Assembly (NCBI GenBank): GCA_902984215.1
Contig: CADWAF010004761.1
Span: 1 to 17,086, forward strand
Source of the DNA: Willaertia magna
Taxonomy: Eukaryota; Heterolobosea; Eutetramitea; Acrasida; Naegleriidae
Reading direction: 5' to 3'
DNA: 17,086 bases
In this document: piece after piece, positions 1 through 17,086 of the stretch
Layout of the letters: every line of letters starts with the position of its first letter
Position numbering within the stretch: position 1 is the stretch's first letter
The notes under the pieces: model-generated
Databases searched by the model: none
Seen by the model: the letters and a program-made list of their open reading frames with translations, nothing else
What the model was told of the DNA's origin: nothing
Position numbers and translations under genes: made by a program

Positions 1-174
1 AAAATTTATGAATGATTTATTATTAAATTTATTTATTTTGAGTGGTAAATTATGTAATAAAATATATTTATTTAATTTTGTTAATCCGATAAGAGTGCTG
101 CGCAAAAACATTTTTTTAGTTTTTTTGATTACTTGGTTTTTCAATCATTGGCGCCAAAAAATTATTTACAAAAA
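1..174. other. 5' flank of the actin-related gene, no gene seen
   Basis: AT-rich non-coding sequence. No ORF, tRNA or repeat is visible. A slightly GC-richer patch (about 82-105) followed by T runs just upstream of the start codon could be part of a promoter, but I see no recognisable motif. The actin-related frame is open upstream to 133 only through a TTG codon, so the first ATG at 175 is preferred. Confidence 0.5.
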
Positions 175-1563: not shown

Positions 1564-1618
1564 AGATAGGATTAAAGTAATGTATCTCCCGCCTAAGGCA
1601 AATAAAATTTACAAATAA

Positions 1619-4600
1619 ATGAAACCTACAGGCAAGTCTAAAACTTCTTACGAAAACAGAGGGTCCCTTCTTTCTAACAACACAGTTTGTTTTTCTTCAA
1701 CAAACAACATCTCTCCTAGATCCTCTTCGGAAATATTACTCTCAAAATACCTTAAAGAAGAGAAACCTGTAAATAGCAAAACTGATTCAAATGTTGTGAA
1801 TGAAAAGTCCCAGACTACATTCTTGAGTCAGATACCCGAAAAAGAAGCAGAAAAGATTTATATGAAGTACTTTCCAAAGGGAACTAAGGTTGTGCACGCT
1901 AGGTGTGCCTGTGGATATCTTCACCCTTTTGTTAGTGTTCCTTGTGTTGAGGTAGAAAATAAAACAACGGAGAACACTGAATCGCCTAGCACAAAGTTAT
2001 CTTATGTGATAAGAAGATCAATAGAGAACACGGAAGAAAAAGAAACAAAAAAAATAGATGGAGCACAAAACAAAGAACAGTTAAATGACAATAGTTTGTT
2101 GGATATGGAACCAACCAAAGAAGAAAATGATGTTTTAAATCAATTTATTAAACAATCCGATGCAACTTCGGGTCCTGTTTTACTCAAAGAGTTTAACAAG
2201 CAAATACGCTCTTTGAGATACCAAATAGAATCAATATCTCACGAAAAAAAATTAATTGAGGAGAGTGCAAAAGAAATATCAGAAAAGGCTGGACAACAAG
2301 TGCAAGAAATTGAAAAACTATATTCAGAGAAGCTTAAATTAAAGGAACAGGTATATACCCTTCAAAAATTCATAAGAAACTCTGCCTGTGATGGTGATTT
2401 GGTAAACACATTGAGAGAGGTTATAAAAGAGAAAGATAACACCATAAAACGAACTGAAACTGAAAAACTAGTGACATCTAGGAGGTTGGAAGAAAAAGAA
2501 AGAAAAATACAGGATTTGATGGAACAGTTCCAATATCAAATCGAATTGTTGAATCAGCAGATAGAGAATATGAAAAAAGATAAAGAGAGGTTGAGTGTTT
2601 CGTTGATTGAAAAAGAACAGTACTTAGTTCAACTTAAAGAGGAAGCTGTCAAGAAAGCGAAAAGTGATATTAAACAATCATTTGAAGAGGACTTACAACA
2701 ATTAAGCCAGGAATTTAAGGCACAAATACAAATTCTTAACATTGAAAAAGATGAACTAGAAAATCTTGTTGCATTACAAAAGGAAAGAATAGAGTTCCAA
2801 GAAAAAGAAGTTTCCAGATTTGTTACTGAAATTAAGCAATACGAAACTCTAACCCGAAACACTGAAGAAAAACTAAAATACCAAGAAAACTACATAACTG
2901 ACCTTACCAGAGACAAAGCTGAAACCGAGTTTAGGCTTAAAACACAATCACAAGAAATAGAAGAATTGCAACATAAAGAAATGAAATTACATGAAGATTG
3001 TATTAAATATAAACAACAAGTTTTGGAAGCACAGCACCAAATAATAGTGAGACAAAAAACCATAGAAAATTTAGAGAGTAAATTAATGTTCCTAAATACA
3101 TCAACTGAATCTATTAACAAAGAAAAAAATAATTTGATGGAAACAATTGAAAGGCTCAATCAAGAACTACTACAAACCGATTTACTTTACAAAACAAAAA
3201 TTCAACAAGAAGAGGAAAGGTTAAAGACCATTATTGAAAATAAAACGAAGGAACATGAAGAGCAGCTGGGGACTGTCACAATTGGTTTTAAACATAAATT
3301 AACTGAGATGGAAAATCAACTTAGTATTTCTAATTCAGAAATATTAATGCTTAGAGAAAAACAAGAAGAAATAATAATTTCACACGTAAATGAACTTCAC
3401 AATTTAGCAGAAGAAAAGAATTTAGTAGAGAAACAGTTGAATGAACAGGCCAAATTGTTAACCATCGAAATAAAAAACTTAAAAAACGAGGAATTAGAGC
3501 TTAAACACAAAATAAGAAAATATGAAGAGGAAATAAATCTACAAAAGGAAGAAAAGCTAGCATATGAAAGAAAAATGCAGGAAACAATTGTTCAACTTCA
3601 AAACTTGGTTGAACAGAATAACAGAGAAATTCTTTTACTAAGAAACGAAAATGGAATGCAAAAAGATCTGGCAACTACTGAAATAGCTAACTTAACCGAA
3701 GAAAAACTATCGATGGAAGAAACTATAAAGAACCTTAATGACCTCATTATTGAAAAGCAGCAACAAATCGATTCTTTCAAAGAAACTATACAAAAGGAAA
3801 ACCAAAGTATAAAGAAAGAGGCAAGTAATTATCAACAAAAGATAACTGAATTGGAAACACAGTTGTCCATAATATCCAAAGAGAGAAGTACATTTGAAAC
3901 TCAACTACAATCTCTCACAACAAAATCAAAGATTTTTGAAAATGGTGTAGAAAAAGAAAAACAGGAGTTAATAAGAAATCTAGAAACAAAATTAAGCGAG
4001 TACCAAGAAATAATCTTTTCTAAGTCTAATGTTATCCAAGAACTTACAGAAAAACTTAATGAACAGTCTTTCAACCTTACAGAACTAGAAAATCAATATA
4101 TTTCAACAACCAAAGAATTATCTAATTTAAAGGAACAAATTCAAGTTGAAGCAACGAAAAATAAGGAATTTGAAAAAGTACTAACTGAAAAGAACAATCA
4201 ATGTGTACAAAATGAAGCACGAACAAAAAAGTTAACAGCTGAAATGCAAGAGCTACTGACAAGTAAAGACCAAATAGAAGAAGAACTATCTAGACAAAAA
4301 CAGCTTGTTTTGAATTACGAACAAATTTTAAGACAAAAAGAAAGCATTCTACTTGAGAAATATGAGGAGATTAAACAATTCAACAACCACATAAATGAAT
4401 CTGCAAAAGAAAAAGGATATACACAGTCAAAACTTGAGGACTTACAACATAAGTTAGAAAACATTATTTTATCAAGTGAAGCCCTCAAAAAAGAATACAC
4501 CACTCAGCTAGAAGAAAAAAACAAAATAATACAAAATTTAGAAAACAAAATATTGGAAATGGAAGTAGAACTACATGGATACAAGAGAATTGGTATGGAA

Positions 4601-5139
4601 TCAAACTCAGATAACCAATTAATACTATCACTCAAAAAAGAAAACATTGTGTTGAAAGAGTAAGTATATTATAAAATCTTGTTTATTTTACAATGATGAT
4701 AAGGCAAAACGAAGAAATTAAACAAACAACTGATAAAATGCAACAGGAAATAGAAAGACTACTTGAACAACTAACAAGCTTGAGCTCTATAGGATCCAAA
4801 ATAGATGAAACCTCTTTGCCACCTTCCACTGGATCTAAATTATCTGTATCTGTCTCATCGAACAAAAATAACAGGAGAAGTTCACCTATGAATTCTAAAT
4901 CAGTCTCTATTATACAAACTACATCTACTAATGCAACACATATGCTTAAAACTGATGATTTCAAGCAACTATGGAAACAATTAAGGAATGAAATAATAAG
5001 ATTAAAACAAAAAAATGTGGAACTTGCTCAACAAATTATGACAGTGAACAAAAACAAAGAGGATTCTATAGTAAGATATGAAAAACAGATTCAAAAGCTT
5101 CAATCAGAATTAAACAGCCTTAAATCTGTTAATCTTTAG
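1619..5139 (+). CDS. very long coiled-coil protein, two exons
   Basis: Spliced coding sequence is 1619-4659 joined to 4704-5139, giving about 1158 residues and a TAG stop. The N-terminal 190 residues are Ser/Thr/Asn-rich and hold a small Cys/His cluster, C96-A-C98 with H102 and C109, that could bind a metal. From about residue 190 to the end the protein is almost uninterrupted Glu/Lys/Gln/Leu-rich heptad coiled coil (many LEEKE, IEELQ, EKLNEQ-type segments), broken once after the splice junction by a Ser/Thr/Asn-rich linker of about 60 residues. The architecture recalls golgins, centrosomal or cytoskeletal tethering proteins, but composition alone cannot decide among them. All of its many Gln codons are CAA or CAG, which supports the standard code. 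The gap to the upstream gene is 55 bp and contains AATAAA at 1601. No family is recognised. Confidence 0.9.
4660..4703 (+). other. 44-nt GT-AG spliceosomal intron
   Basis: GTAAGT donor at 4660 and AG acceptor ending at 4703. Removing these 44 nt joins GA to G (Glu codon) and fuses the two long coiled-coil frames (frame 2 into frame 1) without a stop. Unspliced, a TAA at 4661-4663 would end the protein at residue 1014. The coiled-coil pattern continues directly across the junction (…LKE then QNEEIKQ…). Confidence 0.88.
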
Positions 5140-5405
5140 CATTTAAATAATGTTTTAAGGCAAATAAATAAACAGTTCAGTTTCGATTAATTGTACTGTA
5201 CTTCAATATACATCAATACGTTAAAAATTTATCGTTAAAAATCTATTACAGTAAATTTCGTTGGTGATGTAAAAAATCCTCCCCATTAACGATTGGCTTT
5301 TGTAATAATTGGTAAACTCATTTCAACAGAAAAATGTAGTTTTCAAAACTGCAATTTAAGTTGCCTCCATAGAGATTACGATTGCTACGAAAAAAAAAAC
5401 AAAAT
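5140..5405 (+). promoter_or_regulatory. intergenic region with repeated CGTTAAAAAT, possible promoter
   Basis: This is the only spacer between the coiled-coil stop and the Cys-rich gene, so it should hold the 3' end of one and the promoter of the other. AATAAATAAA-type poly(A) signals lie near 5163-5170. The decamer CGTTAAAAAT occurs at 5219-5228 and 5233-5242, 14 bp apart, and the inverse TTAACGAT at 5286-5293 pairs with ATCGTTAA at 5231-5238. These resemble Myb-type or other factor sites. An inverted CCAAT (ATTGG) overlaps 5292-5296. The regulatory role is inferred. Confidence 0.35.
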
Positions 5406-6329
5406 ATGAAAGTACATTTAGCATTAGTTGTATTAATTGCTGCGCTTGCTTCATTATGCTCAGCTCAAACCTGCTCTACTAACTACGTAAACGTTACTGG
5501 TGCTGCCTTAATCTCTGTCGGTATCTGCCCTGCAGGATATGTATTCAAAGATAAAGTTTGTATTGAATATACCTCTAAAATTGGTGCATCTTGTGATATT
5601 AACAACCCTTGCCTCTTCTCTTGGTTATCATGTGTTAGTGGTGTTTGCCAACCAGTTAAATCTAGATTAAATGGTGATAAATGTACCGTAAAGGAGTCAT
5701 GCGGAAGCTATGACTTTAACCCTCTTAATTGCAAGAGTGGTTCCTGTTCCCAATATACTACCAAAAATGCTGCTGTAGGTGAATCATGTGGAAATTATGA
5801 TGACAGTGCCAATACTATTACTAAATGCAACAGTGGATTAGCATGCTTAAATGGTGTTTGCGTTACTGTTAAGGTACTTGCAGAAAATGCAAATTGTACT
5901 GCCTCTTCCTTAGTCGAATATTGTGATACTAACCTTGTCTGCTTAAACAGTAAATGTCAAAAGGCATTAACACAAGGACAAGCATGCGACGGTACTGTAC
6001 CATGTAGGTCTGGATTAGTTTGTAGAAAGAAATCCAGTCAAGCTGGTTCTACCTGTGAAAAGTTAGCTGATTGGAATGAATATTGTGAATCCAATACTGA
6101 TTGTATTGTTAGTGCTTATGGTGGATTAGCTAGATGTAACAAGGCAACTAACAAATGTGTCAGAATCTATTCAATTTTGGGCGATGGTGCTTGTGGTGTT
6201 AATGAAGATTGTTTCTCTGGATTCTGTTCAGGAGGAAAGTGTGTTTCTAAAGATGACGTAACAAAGCAAACTTGTTCCTCAAACACCTGCCCAACTTCCA
6301 CTGCAGCTTGCTCATGTGAAATTTATTGA
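5406..6329 (+). CDS. secreted cysteine-rich repeat protein
   Basis: A 307-residue protein starting at ATG 5406 (an earlier in-frame TTG at 5382 is ignored). Residues 1-20 form a clear signal peptide (hydrophobic LALVVLIAALASL, cleavage after SA before QTC). The mature part has repeated Cys modules of the pattern C-x2-GL-x-C-x3-5-C, for example CNSGLACLNGVC and CDTNLVCLNSKC, plus CFSGFCSGGKC near the C-terminus. This recalls EB-like or Dickkopf-like disulphide modules common in extracellular proteins of free-living protists. No transmembrane or GPI segment follows, so the product should be secreted or lysosomal. Function is unknown. The stop TGA at 6327 is directly followed by an unrelated gene fragment, so the natural 3' end of this gene may have been replaced. 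Confidence 0.9.
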   Translation: MKVHLALVVLIAALASLCSAQTCSTNYVNVTGAALISVGICPAGYVFKDKVCIEYTSKIGASCDINNPCLFSWLSCVSGVCQPVKSRLNGDKCTVKESCGSYDFNPLNCKSGSCSQYTTKNAAVGESCGNYDDSANTITKCNSGLACLNGVCVTVKVLAENANCTASSLVEYCDTNLVCLNSKCQKALTQGQACDGTVPCRSGLVCRKKSSQAGSTCEKLADWNEYCESNTDCIVSAYGGLARCNKATNKCVRIYSILGDGACGVNEDCFSGFCSGGKCVSKDDVTKQTCSSNTCPTSTAACSCEIY

Positions 6330-6505
6330 GAGAAAAGAAAACTAAGGGTGAACACGCACATGTTCCATCAGTTGCTTATAATAAATATAAGAAGAGTTTA
6401 GAAGAACCAAAGAAGAGTGAGGGATTTGATGAAGTTAAACAAATTAATTTTATTCCATCATTCACAACTGACCAAGAACGTGAAGAATTTATGGAATATA
6501 CATAA
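6320..6505 (+). pseudogene. orphan C-terminal fragment of polynucleotide kinase 3'-phosphatase (PNKP-like)
   Basis: Frame 2 from 6320 to a TAA at 6503-6505 encodes a short peptide with HVPSVAYNKYKKSLEEPKKS followed by EGF and an INF motif. This is the characteristic end of the kinase domain of eukaryotic PNKP DNA-repair enzymes (human: HIPVSD…YRKQFEAPTLAEGF…IPF). The P-loop and phosphatase parts are absent: upstream lies the Cys-rich gene on the same strand. The frame stays open after the TAA for ten codons (RDKPHEKRSF), meets a possible 39-nt GT-AG intron (6536-6574) and ends PTQ-TAG at 6584-6586. The TAA may therefore be a CAA-to-TAA nonsense change in a longer original C-terminus. It is a displaced fragment with no start codon, probably untranslated. 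Confidence 0.7.
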
Positions 6506-6587
6506 AGAGATAAACCTCATGAGAAAAGATCATTTGTAAGTAATAATATTTTGACAATTAATAAATTTAAATAGCCAACGCAATAGC

Positions 6588-6620
6588 ACTATCTGGGTAA
6601 GTACTACTATCTGGGTAAGT
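6588..6620. repeat. 15-bp direct repeat, 18-bp period
   Basis: ACTATCTGGGTAAGT occurs at 6588-6602 and again at 6606-6620, separated by ACT. It lies at the left edge of the AT-rich block in sequence of host-like base composition. It could be a slippage duplication or mark a junction. Each copy carries a GTAAGT like a 5' splice site, but no exon is attached. Confidence 0.8.
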
Positions 6621-6755
6621 TTCGTGTTTTTGTAGTAAGACAAAAAAAATACAACGACAACACTCATCCACCCTTTGAGTTCTTATTACCAACAAATAAT
6701 AACAATAAATGCAAACAAATAATCAAATAACACAATTTATTACTACAAAAACATG

Positions 6756-6846
6756 AAACCTCTCATTATGATAACAAAATTAAATCATGTAAAACCTATT
6801 AAAAAAGTAAAATCAAAACTTCTCAATATGATGACGGAAATAAAGT
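6756..6846. repeat. imperfect direct repeat, about 61-bp spacing
   Basis: AAACCTCTCATTATGATAAC near 6756 and AAACTTCTCAATATGATGAC near 6817 match at 16 of 20 positions. Both are followed by A-rich sequence. On the minus strand they encode similar short peptides (YHNERF and HHIEKF), so this could be an internal repeat of a decayed coding region. Confidence 0.5.
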
Positions 6847-9640
6847 TTTGATATTAATTTATAAACTAGAAATCATTTAAATAATCTATATTACCTAAAG
6901 CATAATTTAGTTTTTTAATAGTTTGAATGTATTTTTAAGAAAGATTAATAATTTATTAAAAGTTTTATATATTACTTTTAATTGATAAATCATTATTATA
7001 ATTAGAATCTACAATCAAATAATAAAAAAAATTTACAATATTTTCTTTTATCATTAATTAAATCTTTTTTTTTTATTGTTACTCTTTATAATAAAACATT
7101 TCAAGTTATATTTAATATCAAAGTAAAATCCAATTTTAGGGTATAATATGTTAAAATTTGAGTTAAAATAATAATTTTCTTACTTAAAATATCATTTACA
7201 CTATTTCACTTTCTATTTATATTATCAACTATATTATTTTCAATATTAATATTATTTTCAATTATTAAAACATCATCATAATTATCAATTTTAAAATATA
7301 TTCTTCATATTAATCAATACCTATTTTATTAATATCAACATTATTTAACATAATTTCATCATTTTCAATCTCTATTTCTTCATCACAAATAATATTACTT
7401 ACAAAATAATTCATAATACAAGGCTTCTTTAAAATAGAATTTTTTTTTAAATCAAATAAAATTATCAAAAAGATAATAAAAGAATTTAAACCAAAATTTT
7501 TTTTTATTAAAACCATATTATATATTGTTTAATAAAAACCTTCTTGAAAAATAATGAAAACTTTTTAATTCTTTATTTAATAAATTTCTATACCATTTAA
7601 AAAAACATTTAACAATAATCTCATATATATAAATATTAAATGTGAATACCAATAAGTCTTATTTAAAAGTCTATAATAACTTTCATATAATCTTTTACAT
7701 CTAAATCCAATATTATCTATATTTTCATTATTTATAATACCTCTTTTCAAAATATTAATCATATACACAAATTCTTTCCAAACTCACTTTATTTCATTTT
7801 TATTTTCAAAATTCTTAAATTCATTCATAAAAATACTTTCATAATTATTAAAAATATTGTTTTCTTATAATATAAATAAAAAACTTTTGATTATCATTAT
7901 CACTTAAATCAACATTTAACATATTTTTAACAATTTTTTTTAAACTAATAATAAAACTTAATACATTAATTTTTTCAAACTTAAAAAACAATACTAACTA
8001 TTAATAAATAAATTTTAAACAGTTACTAACATAATATTTACTTTTTTTTTCATTTCCATCTTTCTAAAATTATCAATATCATAAATATAACACATTCTTC
8101 TCACACTAATTCCTAAAACTAATAACATATTTCCAAATAAATCAGAAACTAATATTTTATTAATATTAAATTTGATATAAACTTTACCAAAATTAAGTAT
8201 TATCTATATAATATTACTAATAATATTTTTTAAATAACTTGAAAATAATTTAATTAAATTTTCAAAACCAAACCATAAATTAATAAAAAAAAATGCAGTT
8301 TGGTTTTTAATGTAATAAAATATAACTATTTGTTAAAGAAACATAAAAAATAATTACATTTTTTTATCTTTAGTTCTAGGTTTATTAATATAGAATTTAA
8401 ATAAAAGTTCTTATATAATATTATTATTACTTTATTTAATTTCTTTCAATAATATACTAGTTTTTGAATCTATAGGTAAATTTTTTTTAAAATGTTTATC
8501 AAATTTTTTCAAATATATATAAATAATATCTGTTATATAATTTTTTAAATTTGAAATAAATAATATAATAATCTTTTTATATCCTACCTTTTTATCATTT
8601 AAAATATATAAACCCTTTTTAAATTCATATTTTTTAATTATTAATAATATTTCTTTTTTCTTTACATCAAAAAATGATCTAAAATACGAAATATCTTTGC
8701 TAAATTTTAAAATAATATTATTCTATTTACTATCAGTTAATTCTTCTTATTCTTTTATGAAAAATTCATATTTCTTTTTATTTATAACTTCATAATAGTT
8801 TTCATTTATTCATTTATTGTAGATACTAAAAGATTTTTTTATTTGAATTATTTGTATAGATAATATTAATAATGTAATTAAATAATTTGTTGTTTTTCAT
8901 TAATAATTAAATAATAATTTCAAGCAAAGTTACACCAAATGATATAAACAATAAACAATTAATACCATAAATAATTTTCATTAAAATATTTGTTTGTAAA
9001 CTATTTAATATAGGATTACTTATTAAATATTGTAAATCATAACAGTTTCTTGTATTGTAAAATTTTGAAACAAAATATTACTTTAGAACTTAAATTAAAG
9101 AAATAAAATAAATGCAAACAAAACATTTTCTTAATACAATTATCAGAATCTTTAAAATAAGTAAAATAATTAAAGTTGTCTTTGGTTATTTTTTTTTATA
9201 TGTATTTGCTAAAAAGATAATATTTTTCATAAATATTTAAATCACTAAGTTTCCAAATATTATTTTAGCAGTTCCATAGTGATTATACTTAAAATTATAT
9301 ATAGTTTTCCAATTGTTCATACAAAAATAGAATAAAAAAGCTTAATAAAATATTTTTTAAAACAATCTTAAAATAACCTTTTTTCAAAAATTTCTTTTTT
9401 TTTAAAACACTGTTTTAGACATGTTTAATAAATACAAATAATTATTCACTCTCATCCATTAAATCCTTCTTTTTCTACTATGTATTTTTGAAGAATAAAT
9501 TATTTTTACTTTTTTTACTTCAAAACTATCTTAACAAATTTCTTTCTACACTCTCTTGTTTTAATCTTTGATTGCTTTTTTGTTACAATAGTTTTCTTCT
9601 TTATAGTTTTTAGACTTTTCTTTTTTTTCTTTTTATCACC
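6830..9640 (-). pseudogene. decayed long ORF, C-terminal continuation of the methyltransferase-like gene
   Basis: The minus strand carries long in-register coding-like stretches broken mainly by TAA/TAG. The best run is about 8830-8040 (around 260 codons, no in-frame TGA and no obvious indel), including SKDISYFRSFFDVKKKEIL, NKPRTKDKK, NFGKVYIKF and VSDLFGNMLLVLGISVRRMC. A second run at 7768-7310 has NIGFRCKRLYESYYRLLNK, TYWYSHLIFIYMRLLLNVF and NFGLNSFIIF. The N-terminal part (9640-9350) is Lys/Arg/Gln-rich, like an NLS-bearing linker, and includes DLMDESE. Frameshifts are suspected near 9250, 8800, 7985 and 7300. The 7650-7500 segment vaguely recalls the C-terminal part of KDZ-type transposases, but I do not claim that identity. 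It is in frame with the methyltransferase-like region above it, so both may be one large polyprotein gene. Confidence 0.5.
6955..6982. terminator. 9-bp inverted repeat near the 3' end of the long decayed gene
   Basis: ATTAAAAGT (6955-6963) and ACTTTTAAT (6974-6982) form a 9-bp stem with a 10-nt AT loop. It lies near where the minus-strand relic loses clear coding signal, so it might be its 3'-end hairpin. In DNA this AT-rich such hairpins are not rare. Confidence 0.25.
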
Positions 9641-10388
9641 AAATTAGCAGGAACAATAAGTATTGAAAAAAGTTATAAATATAAAGCTTGAAAGGTATTT
9701 ACATTTTTATTTTTAATATCAACCATAACTATCTTTAATCTGTAAACTATCATTTTATACTAATATTTATTAATTTCAAAACCAACACAATTCCTACCTA
9801 TTATTAATACAACTAAAGAAGTAGTACTTGTGTTAGAATATAAATTAAAAATTAAATTATTAAAAGTTGAAAACATGTAGAGTAAGTAGGCAATTAATAA
9901 AAGAAACTTTTAACTATTATTGACTAACATTTAAATTTTTACAAATTAAAAATTTTGATTCAAATAAGAATAATATAGAATTATGACTCTAACATAAATC
10001 ATAATCTATACAAACTTTTAATAAACCAAAAAGAAAAACAATAACTATGTTCTTGAATTTATAATTAATAACTTGGTGATAGTCTTTTGAATACAAGTTC
10101 TTTATTTAAACTAATTATTAAACTTAAAAATTCCCTTTGAATACACACTTTATTAATAAAGTATTTAACACAACTAACCTTTAAATTGCTTCTTAAATTA
10201 AATTTTATTTAAATATCATAAAATTTGCTCATTAGTTTATTATAAAATCTTAAAGCAAATTTAGTAATATCTTCTTTCTTAATTAACTTATAACCCAAAA
10301 CTACATTAGTTTTGAAAACAATAACAAAATCTTCTAACCTACACTTAATTTTAAAGCAATAATTTTTAAAAACACTATATTTTAAATG
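9640..10388 (-). pseudogene. decayed N6-adenine/N4-cytosine-type DNA methyltransferase-like domain
   Basis: The N-terminal part is well preserved in phase (10379-10080: NYCFKIKCRLEDF, LGYKLIKKEDITKFALRFYN). Then VFLFG at 10039-10025 sits where a DPPF/Y catalytic motif is expected, followed by a DYD. After a frameshift come LLYMF, an IFNLYS segment and SNTSTTSLVV at 9837-9808, where families of this class have FxGxGTT (AdoMet motif I). Then GRN and GFEIN (9798-9769) and a Tyr and Arg spaced as in LGRNFIGIEINPEY…R. The order DPPY-type motif before FxGxGTT fits the beta-class N6/N4 methyltransferases. Every altered motif residue except one is explained by C-to-T or G-to-A (Pro to Phe/Leu, Gly to Ser/Asn, Asp to Asn). 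The substrate base is unknown. The frame continues into the downstream Lys-rich segment without a clear end. The AdoMet part is the firmer call; the VFLFG reading is weaker. Confidence 0.5.
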
Positions 10389-10397
10389 TTAAAACAA

Positions 10398-10411
10398 GTA
10401 TAAATTTATAT
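10398..10411. repeat. palindrome copy 1, one base degenerate
   Basis: GTATAAATTTATAT, differing from the perfect 14-mer GTATAAATTTATAC only by C to T at the end. It lies 10 bp upstream of the first codons of the methyltransferase-like relic (minus strand), so it could serve a promoter (TATA-like) as well as a 3'-end role. Confidence 0.6.
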
Positions 10412-10432
10412 AAATTAATTTAATTAAAAAAT

Positions 10433-10458
10433 AAAAAAGTATAAATTTATACTTTTTT
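10433..10458. terminator. palindrome copy 2, perfect 26-bp AT palindrome after a stop codon
   Basis: Six A, then GTATAAATTTATAC, then six T: a perfect 26-bp inverted repeat without a loop. On the minus strand it begins 2 nt after the TAA (10463-10461) that ends the small gene relic at 10461-10740. This tight placement matches the rule described for Mimivirus transcripts, whose poly(A) sites fall in palindromic hairpins. The 3'-end role here is inferred. Confidence 0.6.
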
Positions 10459-10460
10459 GT

Positions 10461-10740
10461 TTAAAAAAACTTATTGTTTGTTAAATATTTAGTTAAAATA
10501 ATATAAATATTAGGCTTTACAAACTTTGATTTAATACTATCTTGAAGGAACTTAGAGAAAAAATTATAAATTATTATACTAGTTTCTAAATCAAAATATA
10601 GAACTATATAATAATATTTTAACAACAATTAAAAAATCAAACAATATTTAAAAAATGTATAACTTTTCTAATGTCTATCTCACATTTTGTATATAATTTA
10701 ATTTTTAAATTTTTTCTTATTATAAAAGATCTTAATAACT
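10461..10740 (-). pseudogene. small decayed gene ending in KFF-stop, unknown function
   Basis: Minus-strand frame with clear coding texture in its C-terminal 60 residues: VLYFDLETSIIIYNFFSKFL, then KSKFVKPNIY, ILTKYLTNNKFF and TAA at 10463-10461. The N-terminal part is broken by TAA, TGA and TAG, and no start codon is certain. A perfect palindrome follows the stop. I do not recognise the family. The YFDLET piece resembles the first exonuclease motif (DxE) of DNA polymerases and DEDD nucleases (a typical form is FDIET), but that is too short to carry a call. Confidence 0.4.
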
Positions 10741-10766
10741 TTTTTATTTAAAAAATAAAAAAAAAA

Positions 10767-10780
10767 GTATAAATTTATAT
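10767..10780. terminator. palindrome copy 3, after a stop codon
   Basis: GTATAAATTTATAT, preceded by an A run. One C-to-T difference from the perfect core. On the minus strand it lies 9 nt after the TAA (10792-10790) ending the relic at 10790-10873. The flanks of copies 2 and 3 are also alike (A-rich tract on one side, TTTAAAAAAACTTA on the other), so the conserved module is about 50 bp. Confidence 0.55.
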
Positions 10781-10789
10781 AGTTTAAAT

Positions 10790-10873
10790 TTAAAAAAACT
10801 TACTTTCTTTTACATTATCTAAAACCTAAATATAGTTATCTGTCTTTGTTAACAACAAAACTGTTTTATACAT
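10790..10873 (-). pseudogene. C-terminal gene relic ending in SKFF-stop
   Basis: From an ATG at 10873-10871 the minus strand reads MYKTVLLLTKTDNYI, a TAG, then VLD and VKESKFF with TAA at 10792-10790. The upstream sequence to about 11000 shows further weakly coding minus-strand text (ILQKNLLDLVCLHNN) in a shifted frame, so the gene probably extended there. Its ending (KFF, stop, palindrome) is like that of the neighbouring relic at 10461-10740, suggesting duplicated genes or a duplicated 3' module. Function unknown. Confidence 0.3.
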
Positions 10874-11126
10874 TATTGTCAATTATTTAATTAAATTAAA
10901 ACCTTTACCTTAAAACTATTATTATGAAGACACACTAAATCAAGAAGATTTTTTTGTAAAATATTGTAAACAATATATTACAATCAAACAGTAAGACAAA
11001 AAATAATAAATTACTTACATATAAGTGAACTTATTCGTTAATTATTTTAAATTTCTTTCTTTCTATGTCAAAGAAATGGTTTTAGAAAGTTATTTTAGTT
11101 ATAATAATGTAAGTACTATAATAAAT

Positions 11127-11424
11127 TTAAATAATGATATCTTTAAAAAGTATTGTATTATAAAATTCTTCTAAAATACTGAGCTTAAGATTATTGTTAT
11201 ATTCATTTTTAAATTTATGGTACTTTCTAAATATTTTGTTTAATTTTTCTAAAAAATATAAAAAACTGTATAATTTTATACAAATTTACTGTTTTTTCTT
11301 TTATTAAAACTATATCAATCATATCGTCCAAAGTTTTTTGACTATTAATGTAAGTACTATAAATTTTTTCTGCATAATCTTGGTAAACATTCTTTATACA
11401 TTCATTCTCTTTAAAAACTTCCAT
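11127..11424 (-). pseudogene. small gene of about 100 codons, one stop or frameshift
   Basis: ATG at 11424 opens 65 clean codons (MEVFKENECIKNVYQDYAEK…, then KTLDDMIDIVLIKEK) to a TAG at 11229-11227. A one-base shift just before it continues the coding text (KYHKFKNEYNNN, LSILEEFYN) to a TAA at 11129-11127. The composition is balanced with Cys, Asp, Glu, Met and Tyr, unlike a chance ORF. It is predicted soluble and mostly helical. The family is unknown. The start lies 33 bp from the palindrome cluster at 11457-11561, which also precedes the plus-strand gene at 11655, so that cluster sits in a divergent promoter position. Confidence 0.45.
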
Positions 11425-11456
11425 TAAATAAACTGAAATTTTAATTTATAAAATTT

Positions 11457-11470
11457 ATATAAATTTATAC
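11457..11470. repeat. palindrome copy 4, one base degenerate
   Basis: ATATAAATTTATAC followed by six T. The single difference from the core is G to A at the first base, the mirror image of the C-to-T differences in copies 1 and 3. It lies in the divergent spacer between relics at 11127-11424 (-) and 11655 (+). A looser relative (TATAATTTTATAC) is at about 11483-11495. Confidence 0.6.
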
Positions 11471-11515
11471 TTTTTTAAACATTATAATTTTATACTGTTT
11501 TTATTAAATTAATTT

Positions 11516-11529
11516 ATATAAATTTATAC
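11516..11529. repeat. palindrome copy 5, one base degenerate
   Basis: ATATAAATTTATAC followed by seven T, the same G-to-A variant as copy 4, 59 bp further on. The spacing suggests that the spacer may have grown by local duplication. Confidence 0.6.
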
Positions 11530-11547
11530 TTTTTTTAAATTAAATTT

Positions 11548-11561
11548 GTATAAATTTATAC
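11548..11561. repeat. palindrome copy 6, perfect core
   Basis: Perfect GTATAAATTTATAC in the divergent spacer, 32 bp after copy 5 and about 95 bp before the ATG of the plus-strand relic at 11655. Confidence 0.65.
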
Positions 11562-11654
11562 TATTTTTAGATATTAATTATTTTTGAATATTAACTATTT
11601 AATCATTGAAAAGACAAACTTTATGTAATTAATAATCTATAACATATTTTCAAA

Positions 11655-12585
11655 ATGGTCAGTCTTTGTGTTTAAAAGATTTTAGTATAGTTATATATTT
11701 TAAGATTAATTAAAGTTGTTTTTTTTTATTAAGAAAAATTTAAGAAAGAAAAACAAACTTTCTATAATTTTGTTCAAATTTTTAATATTTTATTACTAAC
11801 TTATTATAATTACAATTTTTAATTTTCAAGGTTTACAAAAAATACTATCTTTAAAACTAAAACACATTATAGAATTTTAAGACTACTTTTTAAATTATTT
11901 ATTCATACCTTACATGATTATTATTTTACTCTTAAGATTAATGATTTTGCTTTATTTGATAACTGTAGGGACGTTTTGTTAATAATTTTTGTAATTTCAA
12001 AGTGGTTATTATATAGTCATACTGAATTATTACAATTTTTACTTTTTAACTATTAAAATGAAAATAATAGTGGCTTTATGTAATATATAGTATATAATAT
12101 TAGAGGTTTTAATGAGAAAATTAGTAAAATAGTTTTCAATTATTTATTTAGATTACACAATAACAATAATAATCCTAATATTTTAAAACAAAAACGTGAA
12201 GAATTTAAAAGTATTAATTTTATTCATAATTTACACAATGCTTTTAATATTTTATATGTTACTAATAGATATTATTTGAAACCAAATAATATTAATGTTG
12301 TTCATGTTAAAGAAAAATTATAATAAATACATAAAAAATTAAAAAAAAAATGACTTGCAAATATTAATCTATTTTGAAAAACCTTCTTAGTTTTTGATAA
12401 CTGATAATAAAGTAAAAAAAGTAATCATTATTAATAAAATTATACCTTAAAACTTAAATGAATTAATTGATAAATAGATTAAAGATAACAATAAGTATTT
12501 TAAGAACAAAATTGAGTAAAAAAGATTAAACAAATATTATGAGTATTCTATTTGAATAAAAAATAATTTCTTTAAACAATAATAA
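11655..12585 (+). pseudogene. decayed plus-strand gene of about 310 codons, unknown function
   Basis: From ATG 11655 one frame runs to 12326 with no frameshift and no TGA, interrupted only by TAA/TAG (I count them at 11673, 11688 TAG, 11730, 11820, 12054, 12081, 12321 and 12324). Two stretches of 77 and 79 codons are fully open, with text such as THYRILRLLFKLFIHTLHDY, FALFDNCRDV, YNIRGFNEKISK, NILKQKREEFKSINFIHN and RYYLKPNNINVVHVKEKL. A one-base shift in the poly-A run near 12345 leads into a further coding stretch (LQILIYFEKP, KVKKVIIINKI, LNKYYEYSI) ending NNFFKQ and TAA at 12580. Gln codons are split between CAA and candidate CAA-derived TAA. The palindrome-like hairpin begins within 4 nt of the stop. 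The product is helical and Asn/Lys-rich; no family is recognised. Confidence 0.5.
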
Positions 12586-12611
12586 AAAGAGTATAAATTT
12601 ATATACTTTTT
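12584..12611. terminator. palindrome copy 7, imperfect hairpin after a stop codon
   Basis: An A run, AGTATAAATTTATATACT and a T run, beginning 1 nt after TAA 12580-12582 of the plus-strand relic. Same motif as the 14-bp core with a 2-bp insertion and one mismatch. It shows that the hairpin follows genes on either strand. Confidence 0.5.
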
Positions 12612-12668
12612 GAAACAATTTTAATTTTTTTTTTAAAAAGGTGTTTTATATAGAAGTAATATTTTTTT

Positions 12669-12690
12669 AAAAAAGTATAAATTATATAAT
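12669..12690. terminator. palindrome copy 8, degenerate
   Basis: AAAAGTATAAATTATATAAT: the core with one T lost. On the minus strand it lies about 20 nt after the TAG (12712-12710) of the relic at 12710-13107. Copies 7 and 8 sit between two convergent genes, each next to its own stop. Confidence 0.4.
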
Positions 12691-12709
12691 TAATAGATTT
12701 TACAAATTT

Positions 12710-13107
12710 CTATAAAAAAACCCTTGTTTTTTTTCTTAAAAAAACTATGGAACTACTAAAATTATTGATAATATCTAAATTATTAATTACAACTTTTCTT
12801 GTTTCTCTTTTTTATTTAAAATAAAACCTATTATTATCTTCTTTAATTATACTTCCTCTATTAAAATTGAAACTTGAAAGTGAAGTATTTAAATATTTTG
12901 CTTTAATTGCTCTTTTTGAAATTAATAAAATATCTTTAAAACTTTTATTTATTCCACTTACTATAATTGTTTTATTTTTAGATTGTATTTATTTTAATCT
13001 TAAAATAAATTTATTCATTTTTTATCAACACCAATCAAATTTTCAAACTTATGTTTATTATTATTGTAATGAGAAGATAATAGAAGATAATGAGAAAATT
13101 AAATATT
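12710..13107 (-). pseudogene. decayed minus-strand gene of about 130 codons, unknown function
   Basis: The minus strand reads HKFENLIGVDKK, then after a one-base shift in an A run MNKFILRLK, TAA, IQSKNKTIIVSGINKSFKDI, LLISKRAIKAKYLNTSLSSF, NFNRGSII, TAA, KRETRKVVINNLDIINN and ends KTRVFL-TAG at 12712-12710. The balanced Ser/Thr/Arg/Val/Gly composition marks this as the real frame. A plus-strand ORF across the same bases (12867-13109) is its low-complexity shadow. Only two in-frame TAA and one shift over 120 codons. The family is not recognised. Confidence 0.45.
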
Positions 13108-13160
13108 AAAAATAGATACAAATATTTGTAAAACAGATAAAATATTTAAATATGTAACAA

Positions 13161-13375
13161 ATGAAGTATGAGGTTGTGTTGTTTAAAAATGAATTAAAAG
13201 TATTAAATATTGGAATTATTTTAGATTTTTTTTTCTATTTTTTTGTTGTTTAAAGTGGTGTTTGATTATATTTTAGAGTGAAGGTTGCTAAAAGTGTTAT
13301 ATAAAAGAATTACTTACGTTTAAGATTTTACAATAGTTAGTATTTAATCACATTATTGTAAAGAACTAAATAAAT
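13161..13375 (+). pseudogene. small plus-strand gene relic
   Basis: ATG 13161 begins MKYEVVLFKNELKVLNIGII, a Phe-rich hydrophobic stretch, then after a TAA and a TGA LYFRVKVAKSVI, KNYLRLRFYN and LITLL. About 70 codons with TAA, TGA and TAG interruptions. Clearly more coding-like than the other frames but too short and damaged to identify. It converges with the minus-strand relic at 13340-13672. Confidence 0.3.
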
Positions 13376-13672
13376 ATAAATAGTTTATTTATTGTTATGT
13401 CTATATTTTGGTAATGTTATTAAAATTTAATTTTATCAATAATATTCTTTTTTTGTTCCGATTAATTGTTTTAAGAAATATTTAATTAAAAATTACTTTA
13501 ATTTTTTTCTTTTTATTCTATTTCTAATATGTATTCTATTTTCAAAATTTATAATTATTCTGTTATTTTCAATTAAATCGTTACTTTTTTTACTTTCATT
13601 TTGACTACAAGCTATATATGTAAAAATTTTATCTTTCATATTACATACATTTACCCCAAATATACCAGCCAT
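13340..13672 (-). pseudogene. small gene with an intact 59-codon N-terminus
   Basis: ATG at 13672 opens an uninterrupted 59-residue frame to TAA 13495-13493: it starts MAGIFGVNVCNMKDKIFTYI, contains an ACSQNESKKSNDL segment and ends in a basic RNRIKRKKLK. The same frame continues past the TAA with coding texture (FLIKYFLKQLIGTKKEYY, then TGA and TAA, ILITLPKYRHNNK), so the original protein was probably about 100 residues. It follows the transposase-like relic on the same strand, 190 bp beyond its stop. No family recognised. If the 59-residue form is functional it would be a small basic protein. Confidence 0.4.
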
Positions 13673-13791
13673 TTTTTAAATTAATATTTAATACATTTCC
13701 ATAATCATTAATTACTGATAAATTTTTGTTTATGTTAATTTTTTATACTTTCAATAATATTACACAATAGAACACTATTTAAATATAGAAT

Positions 13792-13819
13792 AAAAAATTG
13801 AATTTGTTGTCAATTTTTT
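13792..13819. terminator. hairpin downstream of the transposase-like gene
   Basis: AAAAAATTGA (13792-13801) and TCAATTTTTT (13810-13819) form a perfect 10-bp stem with an 8-nt loop. On the minus strand it lies 43 nt beyond the TAA that ends the transposase-like relic at 13863. It has a different sequence from the GTATAAATTTATAC family but a similar place relative to the gene. The arm contains AAAATTGA, the same octamer as the Mimivirus early promoter; with A+T this high that may be chance. Confidence 0.45.
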
Positions 13820-13862
13820 TATTTTGAAAAAAAAATTAAAAAAAATAAAAGATAAATATATT

Positions 13863-15857
13863 TTATTCATTATATTCATCATTACTTACTAACAATAAAA
13901 TTATTTCTTTCATTTTATAACCTCTTCCTCTTCTTGTAAGCTCTAATTCTTCTAATTCATTTAATTCATAAAAAATATTACTATTAGAGTTATTATTGGT
14001 TTTATTTTTATAATAATTTTTAGTTTCATCTATTTTATTCTCTTTTTCACTATAAATATCATTATATTCACATTCATTATTATTTAACAAATAATCAACT
14101 AATAAACAATCAAAATTTTATAACACAGAATCATTATATAATTTATCACAAATTCTATAATTATACTTATAATTATAACAATATTAACAATAATTAAATT
14201 CAACCTCCTTTCTATTATTGAATAATAAAATAGATTTTATTTTAATTGAATTATCTTAATATTTTTGATAATATTAAATTTTATATCTATTTTCATAACT
14301 ATAAATAAATTTATAATATTTTCTAACACCTTTAATTACATTAACTTTAAAATCATTATATCTCTTAACTTCTTTTAATATAATAACATTAGTATTTTTT
14401 AAATCTTTTAACTTTTTTACAACATTATCAATATTAGTAATTTCAATATCTCTACTCATAACTCTTCTTTTAATATATTATTTTCTTATGATATAATAAA
14501 AAAAAGTAATATTCAATTTCAAATTTATATTTTTTTGCTAATTCACTAAATAAAATAATAGTTCTAAAAAGTTTATAATATACAAGTCTCCTATTTGACC
14601 AAATAATTAATTTTTTATATCTTTTAATTCATTTAGTTTAATTATAATTTCTTATACATTATGAACATAATTGTGATTAGATAGAGATGTTTCATAAAGT
14701 ATGTTAAAGTAAATAAAATTAATTTTGTTTTTACTTTTCATAATTAATAAAATTATTATATCTTTTATTATAAATTTTTAATATAATTCATTTGTTATTT
14801 TTATTACTTTATTTATTACTTCCCATCTAAATACAAAATCTATTACTACTATTAATTCATTTTCCTTTAAAAATTCCTTTTGTTTTAACTATTTTTTTTC
14901 TGAAGACTAATTAAAAAAGAATGAAACATATATTTGTTAATTTTATTAATTATAGGTTTGTAAGTTTATAAATTTTGTATAATAACTTTTACAAACTTTG
15001 CAATTACAAGAAGAAGATTTTGAGTGTTCATTAAATATAAGGTAAATTTTATATAGTTCTTTTTAATTATTAATTTTTTCTTTATACTCCTTACAAATTA
15101 GACAAATACTTTTTATTTTTCAACATAGCTTTATATTATTTAGTTTTAAATCATTAAATACTTTTAATAAATGAACTGGAAAAAAAAAATTCATTATATA
15201 ATTCGATATATTTTTTGTATAAAGTTTGAGTGGAATGATTTTGCTATAAAATAAATTTAATATTAAAAGGATCTTTTAGAATTATGTTATTGTTTTGAAT
15301 TTGTATTTTATTTTTTTTTACTTTTTTTAATTAAGATAGTTTTAGTAAAAAAAGGTAATTATTAATCTAAAAGTTAATTATCATTTTTTTATCTTCAATA
15401 ATCACTTTACTTTTCTTTTTCTTGTTTGGAAAAGATTTAATTTGTAATATATTAGAAGAGGATTTTTTGATTTATAAATAATATTTCTACTAATGTTAAA
15501 TTTTTTTATTGATTCAGAGATATTAATTTTTTTAATTAAAGCACTAAAAAGTAATTGTTTAATCGGTAAAATTTTTAGAAAAGAATAATATAAATTAATA
15601 ATATTTTAACAAACAACATTATCTATTTTTGAAAAATTGTTTTTTACTTTTTTTTGTAATAGTGTTAATTTATGAAAGTCAATTTCATTTTATGTATAAT
15701 TATATTTATTTTTATTTATTTATAGTTCTAGATTTAAATCATATAATAAACATTTTTCATTATACTTTTTCCAATATATACAGTTATTTTTATGTTTACT
15801 TTTACTTTATCTTAATAACAATTTTAAAGAATAAACACAAATAAAGGGTGTTTTCAT
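13863..15857 (-). pseudogene. decayed DDE-type transposase-like gene (D…WSDGG…HGKS class)
   Basis: A gene of about 665 codons read from ATG 15857 (MKTPFICVYSLKLLL). In order: a Cys-containing N-terminus, an HTH-like helix set at about 15550-15440 (FSALIKKINI, ESIKKFNISRNIIYKSKN), LYKKYIELYNE, HLLKVFNDLKLNNIKLC, a CLICKEY pair and CxCxxC cluster (15008-14991), FLKENELIVVID with an Asp at 14840-14838, NYVHNV, IIIKLNELKDI, then WSNRR at 14601-14587, FSELAKKYKFEIEY, YHKK at 14490-14482, MSRDIEITNI, LKDLKNTNVIILKEV, and KVNVIKG before a Cys/Tyr-rich and acidic C-terminus. The pattern fits uncharacterised transposases with an acidic residue after WS and an HGK(S/G) motif. Here Asp to Asn, Gly-Gly to Arg-Arg and Cys to Tyr are all apparent G-to-A changes. 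About 20 TAA/TAG, one TGA and four or more frameshifts. Dead copy. The family call rests on memory of motifs. Confidence 0.55.
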
Positions 15858-15879
15858 ATTTTTTAATTGATGATTTTGA

Positions 15880-16278
15880 ACTAGTGACTCATACCTAGTT
15901 CGTGAAGGCAACGTTTGCGTCTTCTATTCCTACAAAGTGTACGAACATACTCTTTATAAAAACGGAACAAAACAATTTCAAGGAATCACAAAAATCAATT
16001 TATCTTTGGCAGATATTCAAACTTTCTTATCTTCTATTCAAACATTTAGAAATGGTTACATTTTGGTCACTGAAGAAAATAATATGGTTATTGGAGGTTC
16101 GATTAACACAATCACCTTAGATCAGAAAGGAAGAATGTCTCTGTTTGATATTAAGGATAGAGGGGCTGGTGATTTAATGAGAGATATTTACAATAATAAC
16201 AATTTTTCTTCACTACCTCAATCTTTTTCATTTAGTGATTTTATATTTTCGATTTTTAACCGTTATGCTCTAACGTAA
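15880..16278 (+). pseudogene. truncated Cache-domain receptor fragment
   Basis: 132 codons open from 15880 to TAA 16276-16278, in normal host-like codon usage. The text (SYLVREGNVCVFYSYKVY, NGTKQFQGITKINLSLADIQ, NGYILVTEENNMVIGGSINT, GDLMRDIYNNNNF, LPQSFSFSDF) is the membrane-distal part of a double-Cache sensor like those of heterolobosean TM/Cache receptors and cyclases. There is no start codon, signal or TM segment. Upstream it stops abruptly 23 bp from the end of the AT-rich element, preceded in frame by TGA codons at 15868, 15871 and 15877. It ends just after the Cache core without TM or effector domains. Most likely part of a gene cut by the element and by a 3' break, and a paralogue of the receptor 243 bp downstream. 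Internal GTGs could start a 113-residue product, but function is unlikely. Confidence 0.7.
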
Positions 16279-16279
16279 A

Positions 16280-16450
16280 ATGAATTTCCATGATTTTAAG
16301 GAATTCGTTAAAAAGGTTTTTTCACATTATTTCAAACAAATGGTCTCTAAGTTTCACCGCCTTCTAGTCTACAAAAATGAGCGAAAGCACACCCTGTGTG
16401 ACCCTTTAAAAATGTGCGTGGCAGTGCTACCAGGATGTGGGAAACCCTGA
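16280..16450 (+). CDS. possible small ORF, 56 codons
   Basis: ATG 16280 overlaps the last bases of the Cache fragment's stop region and opens a 56-codon frame with balanced composition: MNFHDFKEFVKKVF, HRLLVYKNERKHTL and CVAVLPGCGKP before TGA 16448. It might be a +1-shifted continuation of the broken Cache gene, a short independent peptide, or chance. The final 70 bp (16380-16450) is the most GC-rich part of the spacer and can fold locally (GGG-AAA-CCC), so a structured RNA is an alternative. Low certainty. Confidence 0.25.
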   Translation: MNFHDFKEFVKKVFSHYFKQMVSKFHRLLVYKNERKHTLCDPLKMCVAVLPGCGKP

Positions 16451-16520
16451 TTTGGTGTGAAATTGATTACACTTTTAGTAAAAAAAAACTAGCGGATATT
16501 CCATTAGTAAACAGAAAAAG

Positions 16521-17086
16521 ATGGTTTCTTACAAAGTTAACCCCGAAACTATTGAGAATGTAGATACTGCTAACTCAGATTCATTTATCTCTGAAAGAAG
16601 TACCAAAATCAAAAAGCCTTACTTTGAGAAAGGTGCCCCTAATAATAAGCGTTTAGGTCTTTCTATAAGAATAACTATAATTGTAGTTATTATGTTATTA
16701 GTTTTATTGTGTTCCGTGTTTGTTTGGTTGTCATCATTCTTATCTGCTCAGAATGGATTAAATAATTTCTCGGGTTTAGTTGTGAAGAATGTTTATGAGA
16801 AAGTGGATGACTTCTTAAAAAACCAGTTCAAACCTTACGTGTTACTGGCAAAGAATATTGCCAGAGATTGGAACAACAGATTAGTTGATGATAGCAATGC
16901 TAAAAACTATTTAACTTACAGATTTCTAGATTATAAATCCGCAGGTATTGGCTTAATGTTTGGAGAGAACAACAATTCCGGTCTATATTCTGTATTAGAC
17001 TCATATTCTAATGGTAGAACAATTTACTTTTGGGCATATAAACCATTGGATTCCTATCAAAGAACGAATATCTCTTTTTTAAACTT
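16521..17086 (+). CDS. transmembrane Cache-domain receptor, 5' part (possible cyclase or kinase sensor)
   Basis: ATG 16521 opens a frame that runs off the window after 188 codons. Residues 1-48 are a polar cytosolic tail, 49-72 a strong transmembrane helix (ITIIVVIMLLVLLCSVFVWL), then an extracellular domain beginning AQNGLNNFSGLVVKNVYEKV with a helix followed by KNYLTYRFLDY…AGIGLMFGE…SVLDSYSNGRTIYFW. This layout (short N-tail, TM, membrane-distal Cache domain) is that of large sensory receptor families in heterolobosean amoebae, often followed by a second TM and adenylate/guanylate cyclase or kinase domains. The effector is outside the window, so it is not named. No intron is visible in this part. 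The truncated fragment just upstream belongs to the same broad family. The spacer 16451-16520 should hold its promoter; an A run lies 16 bp upstream. Confidence 0.8.
   Translation, partial: MVSYKVNPETIENVDTANSDSFISERSTKIKKPYFEKGAPNNKRLGLSIRITIIVVIMLLVLLCSVFVWLSSFLSAQNGLNNFSGLVVKNVYEKVDDFLKNQFKPYVLLAKNIARDWNNRLVDDSNAKNYLTYRFLDYKSAGIGLMFGENNNSGLYSVLDSYSNGRTIYFWAYKPLDSYQRTNISFLN

Follow-up and report, generated by a model that had tools for sequence, protein, structure and literature searches.

Background

Transib and Tdd-4 transposons generate 5-bp target duplications. Duplications of the same length are found in other eukaryotic transposons with terminal inverted repeats (TIRs), among them hAT5, which is cited in PMC12730594. 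The sequence described here (the window) is the entire 17,086-nucleotide contig CADWAF010004761.1 of Willaertia magna, a free-living amoeba related to Naegleria; it is C797 of the 894-contig, 19.24 Mb assembly GCA_902984215.1; other C-numbers denote contigs of the same assembly. Its AT-rich block, from about position 6640 to 15880, holds pieces of four mobile elements designated A, B, C and D, of which B is a TIR transposon lying within A. With good probability, the block consists of dead DNA transposons nested in one another, in a genome of the Willaertia/Naegleria group, and was eroded mainly by C-to-T change, presumably through deamination of 5-methylcytosine (5mC).

Element B resembles the eukaryotic TIR transposons with 5-bp duplications in its short inverted ends, its duplication, its insertion into other elements and its internally deleted copies. 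It differs from them in that no Pfam transposase was found and in carrying a methyltransferase relic and arrays of AT palindromes. To our knowledge, its end sequence YTTAGCAGTTCCATAGT matches no known family, and the B family, distinguished by its methyltransferase relic and its arrays of palindromes, could not be assigned to a known superfamily. Element A is like the CMC (tnp2)/KDZ transposons in an apparently tnp2-like motif order and in a Ulp1-like stretch seen by eye near the C319 gene; it differs in having no Pfam match of note. Polinton/Maverick, virophage and giant-virus insertions share with the locus an AT-rich composition, a methyltransferase relic and, for B, a 5-bp duplication, whereas B is only 3.5-6.7 kb long with 17-bp ends, no hallmark gene exceeded the cut-off in the frames scanned, and three viral scans were negative. 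Fungal repeat-induced point mutation (RIP) and methylation-linked decay are similar in C-to-T change on both strands, in repeats driven towards AT and in the presence of a DNMT1-like gene; the host here is not a fungus, and its CpA preference is only mild, in contrast to the strong CpA preference in Neurospora. As a transposon graveyard the block is ordinary in kind; it contains the uncharacterised family B, and through its transition-dominated decay it opens repeat-directed erosion in Heterolobosea to testing. The B family, Willaertia transposons and RIP in Heterolobosea were undescribed in the titles and abstract openings of the open-licence PMC matches listed.

Nested structure of the block

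The GC content was 15.7% over 6640-15880, compared with 32.3% over 1-6500 and 32.2% over 15900-17086; in successive 500-base intervals it was 13-20% in the block and 28-38% in the flanks. Using blastn, C319 was found to join sequence matching window 6638-9264 (77-85% identity) directly to sequence matching window 12756-13257 (72.5%). The A gene is uninterrupted in C319, which constitutes an empty site for B with a single ATTAT, and this continuity identifies 9264-12760 as a separate insertion. The DNA similarity of A to C319 begins at 6638, and the protein-level match runs from 9252 to 6889. Using tblastn, the open frames of C319 were matched to 13260-12761 and 9252-6889 on the window minus strand, their order being largely kept to the left and right of B, apart from a few weak matches that were misplaced; further A frames of C319 had no window match by tblastn. 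The ordered matches indicate that 12710-13107 and the left part of 6830-10388 are one gene cut by B. At least four pieces (A, B, C and D), not one element, form the nest. Coordinates of all features are given in Table 1.

B is a TIR DNA transposon whose ends are 17 bp long and whose target duplication is 5 bp. Its inverted ends match each other (TTAGYAGTTCCATAGT at 9265 on the plus strand and at 12759 on the minus strand), and the end motif, with up to two mismatches allowed, had 157 genome matches (92 forward, 65 reverse) versus 38 (20 and 18) for a reversed control, these 157 being single ends and not complete B elements. Flanks were compared by eye, and 5-bp duplications were present in all five B copies with both ends located by pattern: ATTAT in the window, ATTTA in C389, TAAAA in C604, TAAAT in C317 and TAGTT in C56, each on both sides. 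Weak pattern matches that are not element ends were dropped from this tally. In C424, whose right end is decayed, TATAT was seen by eye on both sides. B-family sequence lies beside A-family sequence in C415, C447 and, by eye, C389, which suggests that B entered A-rich islands repeatedly. The left flank of the C56 copy (C56:5314-5365) resembles window flank 9210-9264, and this copy is perhaps a second B insertion at or near the same place in A.

A sequence-only reading of the window had described coding texture over most of the block, naming nine segments, and had proposed at least nine genes that probably belonged to one virus-like or mobile element. Codon-position periodicity was compared with 200 dinucleotide shuffles per segment. 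It was clear in four of the nine: no shuffle reached the observed value for 13863-15857, 12710-13107 or 11655-12585, and 3/200 did so for 6830-10388. No significant periodicity was found in the other five, namely 13340-13672 (22/200), 11127-11424 (58/200), 10790-10873 (47/200), 10461-10740 (69/200) and 13161-13375 (154/200). Two of these are backed by relatives, 13332-13664 in three other contigs and 11127-11424 by C604, where, judging from coordinates, a 151-aa open frame begins opposite this segment. Plus-strand 13161-13375 was without support, and the beginning of the A transposase-like gene lies opposite its left part. Homology is the stronger evidence, as relatives of much of the block are present elsewhere in the genome and establish which of its parts belong together.

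About five gene relics were supported in place of nine (the A transposase-like gene, the B methyltransferase, the second minus-strand gene and the plus-strand gene of B, and D). The minus-strand unit 6830-10388 covers two elements with a boundary at 9264, and 12710-13107, taken as a separate unit, continues the gene cut at that boundary. The single element gives way to a nested block: B lies inside A, C319 having the empty site, and the relatives of C and of D are different ones. What the same reading said of a mobile-DNA graveyard that contains relics of transposase-like and methyltransferase genes and is left blank by standard gene finders is supported; such programs see only stops, so the block appears empty. 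Less decayed copies, which it had suggested seeking in the same genome, were found (for example C319 for A and C604 for B), and comparison with an empty site, also its suggestion, yielded the ATTAT duplication around B. Rfam and tRNA scans of the window gave no matches.

Table 1. Features of the decayed block in the window
Feature	Position	Strand	Basis or detail
Element A, C-terminal part of large decayed transposase-like gene and downstream end	6638..9263	-	blastn to C319, tblastn
Target duplication ATTAT, left of B	9259..9263	unstranded	C319 empty site
Element B, 3.5 kb TIR transposon (3,497 bp), internally deleted copy inserted into A	9264..12760	unstranded	C319, relatives
B left terminal inverted repeat, 17 bp, YTTAGYAGTTCCATAGT	9264..9280	+	end pattern
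B putative N4/N6-type DNA methyltransferase relic, limits approximate	9480..10391	-	mapped from C604 42574-43863
B, nine copies of palindrome TATAAATTTATA, at most 1 mismatch	10396..12604		at 10399, 10440, 10768, 11269, 11458, 11483, 11517, 11549, 12592
B second minus-strand gene relic	11127..11476	-	151-aa open frame in C604
Junction of ~2.84 kb B internal deletion relative to C389 (4495 to 7339)	11440..11453	unstranded	
B plus-strand gene relic, transposase candidate	11598..12516	+	alignment A1 of copies
B right terminal inverted repeat, 17 bp	12744..12760	-	end pattern
Element A, N-terminal part of same transposase-like gene, cut off by B	12761..13260	-	similarity to C319
Target duplication ATTAT on the right side of B, belonging to A	12761..12765	unstranded	flank comparison
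Element C, ~330-bp short repeat	13332..13664	unstranded	relatives in C312, C591, C323
Element D, decayed transposase-like gene	13863..15857	-	piece 13866-15359 searched, periodicity

Mutation spectrum of the decayed copies

Pair counts for B were made over the plus-strand region in seven copies, giving 21 pairs; C208, C114, C566 and C858 were among the copies left out. All 21 pairs contained 93-192 transitions, 16-54 transversions and 4-17 indel events, the window and C317 differing by 155 transitions to 18 transversions. For A, comparison of the window with C319 gave 237 transitions, 34 transversions and 23 indel events. In 21/21 B pairs, transitions per C/G site were 11.8-40.8 times as frequent as transversions per site; for A the factor was 31. 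C604, with the highest GC content (23%), is the least eroded copy of B; of the C/G sites in its plus-strand region, 105-161 per comparison are T/A in the six other B copies, versus 26-40 reverse changes. The fraction of C/G sites changed ranged from 39% (A) to 61% (B, C424). These counts provide a clear measurement of transposon death in this lineage, which proceeds mainly by transitions at C/G.

Both strands were hit. Over the plus-strand region of B, C>T equalled G>A within error in all six comparisons (p 0.49-0.91), and over its minus-strand region G>A was somewhat above C>T (p 0.026 in two of five). Every dinucleotide context was affected; in A the changed sites were 104/235 for CA, 65/184 for CT, 16/52 for CC and 5/10 for CG, the CpG counts being small. 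Editing of one strand only was considered and rejected on the ground that both strands are hit everywhere, although an asymmetry in A remains.

Changes between the A copies of the window and C319 fell at codon positions one to three 59, 55 and 37 times over four segments. This absence of a third-position excess indicates that the A gene evolved without visible constraint since the C319 split. In the plus-strand gene of the window B copy the corresponding counts were 64, 40 and 72, the second position being least affected, and some constraint may have predated the loss of this gene. New stops were defined as those absent from C604 (B) or C319 (A) and were counted if only C>T or G>A was needed to create them. 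In the B plus-strand gene, 11 of 13 new stops in the window and 10 of 13 in C424 were of this type, as were 7 of 9 in A.

Cause of the erosion and origin of the elements

The history that would account for these results is that B jumped into the transposase-like gene of A, with pieces of the further families C and D coming to lie to the right. The elements would have started at a higher GC content, as the 23% of the least eroded B copy suggests. They would then have received 5mC, deposited on repeats as in Naegleria gruberi, and its deamination would have produced C-to-T changes on both strands whatever the dinucleotide context, lowered the GC content to about 15% and given rise to stop codons. 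Methylation-driven erosion appears to be the best explanation for the transition excess because the genome has a DNMT1-like gene and Naegleria methylates transposons in all contexts. The DNMT1-like gene is located at C319:16346-17811 (best PDB match DNMT1, 5.8e-43), and a DNMT2-like gene forms an open frame in C456. In N. gruberi, according to PMC12344493, 5mC occurs in all four dinucleotide contexts, is enriched on repeats and young transposons, involves DNMT1 enzymes, and is low genome-wide (0.28%). The DNMT1-like gene lies about 6.5 kb from the C319 copy of A. Two sub-threshold matches to TET/JBP dioxygenases were also noted, at C226:14862-15140 (1.1e-5) and C754:5881-6069 (5.0e-5).

A number of observations weigh against erosion of methylated transposons. 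On the window plus strand of A, G>A changes (96/185) are clearly more frequent than C>T changes (95/301), with p 1e-5; either coding-strand cytosines were hit harder or plus-strand cytosines were protected longer. The context is uneven, CpA being changed modestly more than CpT in 11 of the 12 comparisons that take C604 or C319 as the starting copy and a near copy as its partner, and CpT more than CpA in three older A-family comparisons. Only 5 of 11 new stops in the B plus-strand gene of C441, and 3 of 10 in the window and 0 of 1 in C415 for the poorly aligned B methyltransferase, could be ascribed to C>T or G>A alone. Indels, too, have built up, with 4-17 events in each B pair and 23 for A. 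The control from host genes is weak: the gene at 5382-6329 of the window, intended for this purpose, has no paralogues, and the actin paralogues used, three of 37 matches, are more diverged, with transition:transversion counts of 141:171, 147:186 and 149:227. The DNMT1-like gene has two stops in the six-frame search, implying an intron or damage, and PMC12695648 comes to the conclusion that, across eukaryotes, 5mC has no substantial influence on base composition. In addition, no profile names a transposase in the scanned frames of A, B or D.

The same transition excess (155:18 for B and 237:34 for A) would be expected if the repeats were subject to active, repeat-directed mutation like fungal RIP and not to slow deamination of methylated repeats. 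The targets are multicopy and the CpA preference is mild. A shift in the RIP direction is seen in B, where TpA/ApT is 1.15 and (CpA+TpG)/(ApC+GpT) is 0.81 versus 0.89 and 1.20 in the left flank, but the indices are not clearly shifted in A (0.95, 1.17) or in the right part (0.99, 1.04). The genome has a DNMT1-family enzyme, and RID belongs to the same family according to PMC12730594. Against such a process, no young yet heavily mutated pair was found among the copies compared, and C604 is still at 23% GC; we consider active mutation unlikely. A heterolobosean RIP-like defence, in which a DNMT1-family enzyme marks repeat cytosines in every context and C-to-T change kills families such as B, leaving islands of 15% GC, is a correspondingly doubtful proposal; the transposon-borne N4/N6 methyltransferase of B could have acted as a counter-mark against silencing. 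Plain neutral drift towards a very AT-rich mutational equilibrium, in which repeats and methylation have no special role, is improbable. It would fit the overall GC content of 24.8% given for W. magna C2c in PMC6892926, since unconstrained DNA may sit well below genes, and the older A-family splits, which are not transition-rich (C319/C415 369:548, C319/C368 396:481, C415/window 336:517). It does not readily explain a C/G transition rate 11.8-40.8 times the transversion rate in 22/22 comparisons, an excess that we take to be beyond the usual effect of plain AT pressure. Should the erosion stem from 5mC deamination or from directed mutation, methylation of repeats would influence base composition in a group that has received little study, and it would become possible to test for RIP-like erosion outside fungi.

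That the block is instead a single integrated virus-like element (giant virus, virophage or Polinton) which decayed as a unit is highly improbable, although the sequence-only reading proposed such an origin, beside that of a large transposon, and the AT-rich composition, genes on both strands, DNA methyltransferase relic and intergenic palindromes could be so interpreted; Polintons also make 5-6 bp duplications. The block is composite, with an A copy in C319 that has no B and B copies in many other contigs. No Pfam family exceeded its cut-off in the frames scanned for A, B and D, so none of the hallmarks (capsid, packaging ATPase, polymerase B, retroviral-type integrase) was found, the nearest to one being a sub-cut-off DNA_pol_alpha_N match at 0.014. 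Pattern-based scans of viral contigs were negative for the B plus-strand protein, the B methyltransferase and the C577 relative of D. The frames scanned against Pfam, some open and others read through their stops, were a subset of those in A, B and D, decay lowered the sensitivity, and no transposase profile was recognised in these elements either; for these reasons a viral link for each element taken alone is rated only as unlikely.

Gene relics and palindromes of element B

Other copies of B are 6.70 kb (C389), 6.57 kb (C604), 6.43 kb (C317) and 3.05 kb (C56) long; besides the large internal deletion, two smaller stretches of C389 are missing from the window copy. The methyltransferase assignment was based on a 175-aa open frame in the C415 copy, which matched phrog_18293 (methyltransferase) in PHROG at 2.5e-9 and PF01555 only at 0.0043, under the cut-off. 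The C604 read-through gave the same PHROG family at 6.9e-5 and PF01555 at 0.0043. There was no match from the C389 piece or from the window piece (one frame tried), and no PDB match. The gene was open throughout in no copy read, C604 having 6 stops over 430 codons. With moderate confidence, the minus-strand gene is taken to be what is left of an N4/N6-type DNA methyltransferase gene.

The protein of the plus-strand gene is conserved and can be aligned among the copies that were compared; it had no family over the cut-off and no PDB match of note. It gives the impression of a DUF6589-like protein, no profile match exceeding the cut-off. By elimination, it is the candidate transposase of B. PDB searches of P0002, A1 and A2 returned nothing usable, the match of A1 to RNase H (E 0.22-0.27) not being claimed, and a protein search of P0002 found none.

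The palindrome TATAAATTTATA, with at most one mismatch, occurs in 19, 22 and 22 clustered copies in three long B copies, compared with 9 in the window B, 5 in C56 and 3 in the C319 copy of A. Its 18-base form AAGTATAAATTTATACTT, with up to three mismatches, was found six times in the window versus 0.38 expected, and none of 200 shuffles reached six. The shared intergenic hairpins noted previously are accordingly real, and they are concentrated in B. Likely candidate roles for the palindromes are as binding sites for an element protein or as ends of two-way transcription.

Element A

The better preserved A-family copy is located at C319:1290-9723. Read-through of the C415 A-family copy gave two protein relatives among 8000 scored candidates, both from W. 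magna. The first, P0004, is a 918-aa protein annotated as hypothetical, with 57% identity over 92% of the query; the other has 99% over 20%. The A frames scanned had no Pfam match of note, and P0001, P0004 and the pieces were without a transposase profile match. The protein shows an apparently tnp2-like motif order (FPxALWFG, a D-containing stretch and CCxxC), which would place it near the CMC/KDZ transposases, profile searches giving no match; A probably encoded a transposase.

In the C319 copy, inverted stretches were found at 1356-1515 and 9623-9464, falling short of the outer end, and a repeated coding motif of the HETSHYDDGIKS type was seen near both ends in opposite orientation. CACTA ends were considered for A, with CACTA near 6588 in the window and near 9811 (minus strand) in C319, and were rejected as the opposite end had no match. 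Upstream of the A gene, C319 frames contain stretches judged by eye to be Ulp1-type protease-like and Maelstrom-like. The GC skew of window 7001-8250 and 14001-14500 is -0.58 to -0.81, the plus strand being nearly without G while C persists; the extreme skew in A (7001-8250) fits the strand asymmetry of its changes.

Elements C and D

Relatives of C in C312, C591 and C323 were 80-84% identical, and one in C261 was weaker. The C312 copy adjoins two open frames that are histone H3-like by eye (2296-2739 and 3080-3325), and a hAT-like stretch, also by eye, lies on its other side.

The minus-strand piece 13866-15359 of D contains 21 in-frame stops. Its read-through had two distant relatives, in C619 (38% identity, 1.9e-19) and C577 (24%, 3.4e-14), the latter an open frame of 679 aa. 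With its cysteine-rich start and SDKG and HGKS stretches, the C577 frame looks like a transposase; the database results gave no superfamily. It had no Pfam match and no protein-database match, and its predicted structure (mean pLDDT 31) was unusable. D is putatively a transposase gene. The GC skew in D (14001-14500) is extreme, without the match to strand asymmetry noted for A.

Flanking host genes

The left flank contains an actin-family gene (Pfam 3e-97), a long coiled-coil-looking frame and another frame, rich in cysteine, that matches EB below the cut-off, and the right flank contains a piece with a weak Cache-domain match. Short host-like coding pieces lie at both borders of the block, at 6340-6520 and 15899-16278, the right one with the Cache match. 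They look like truncated genes, so the cluster may have disrupted genes at either border. The actin family is large (37 matches), and some of its members, such as those in C305 and C839, have stops and may be pseudogenes or contain introns.

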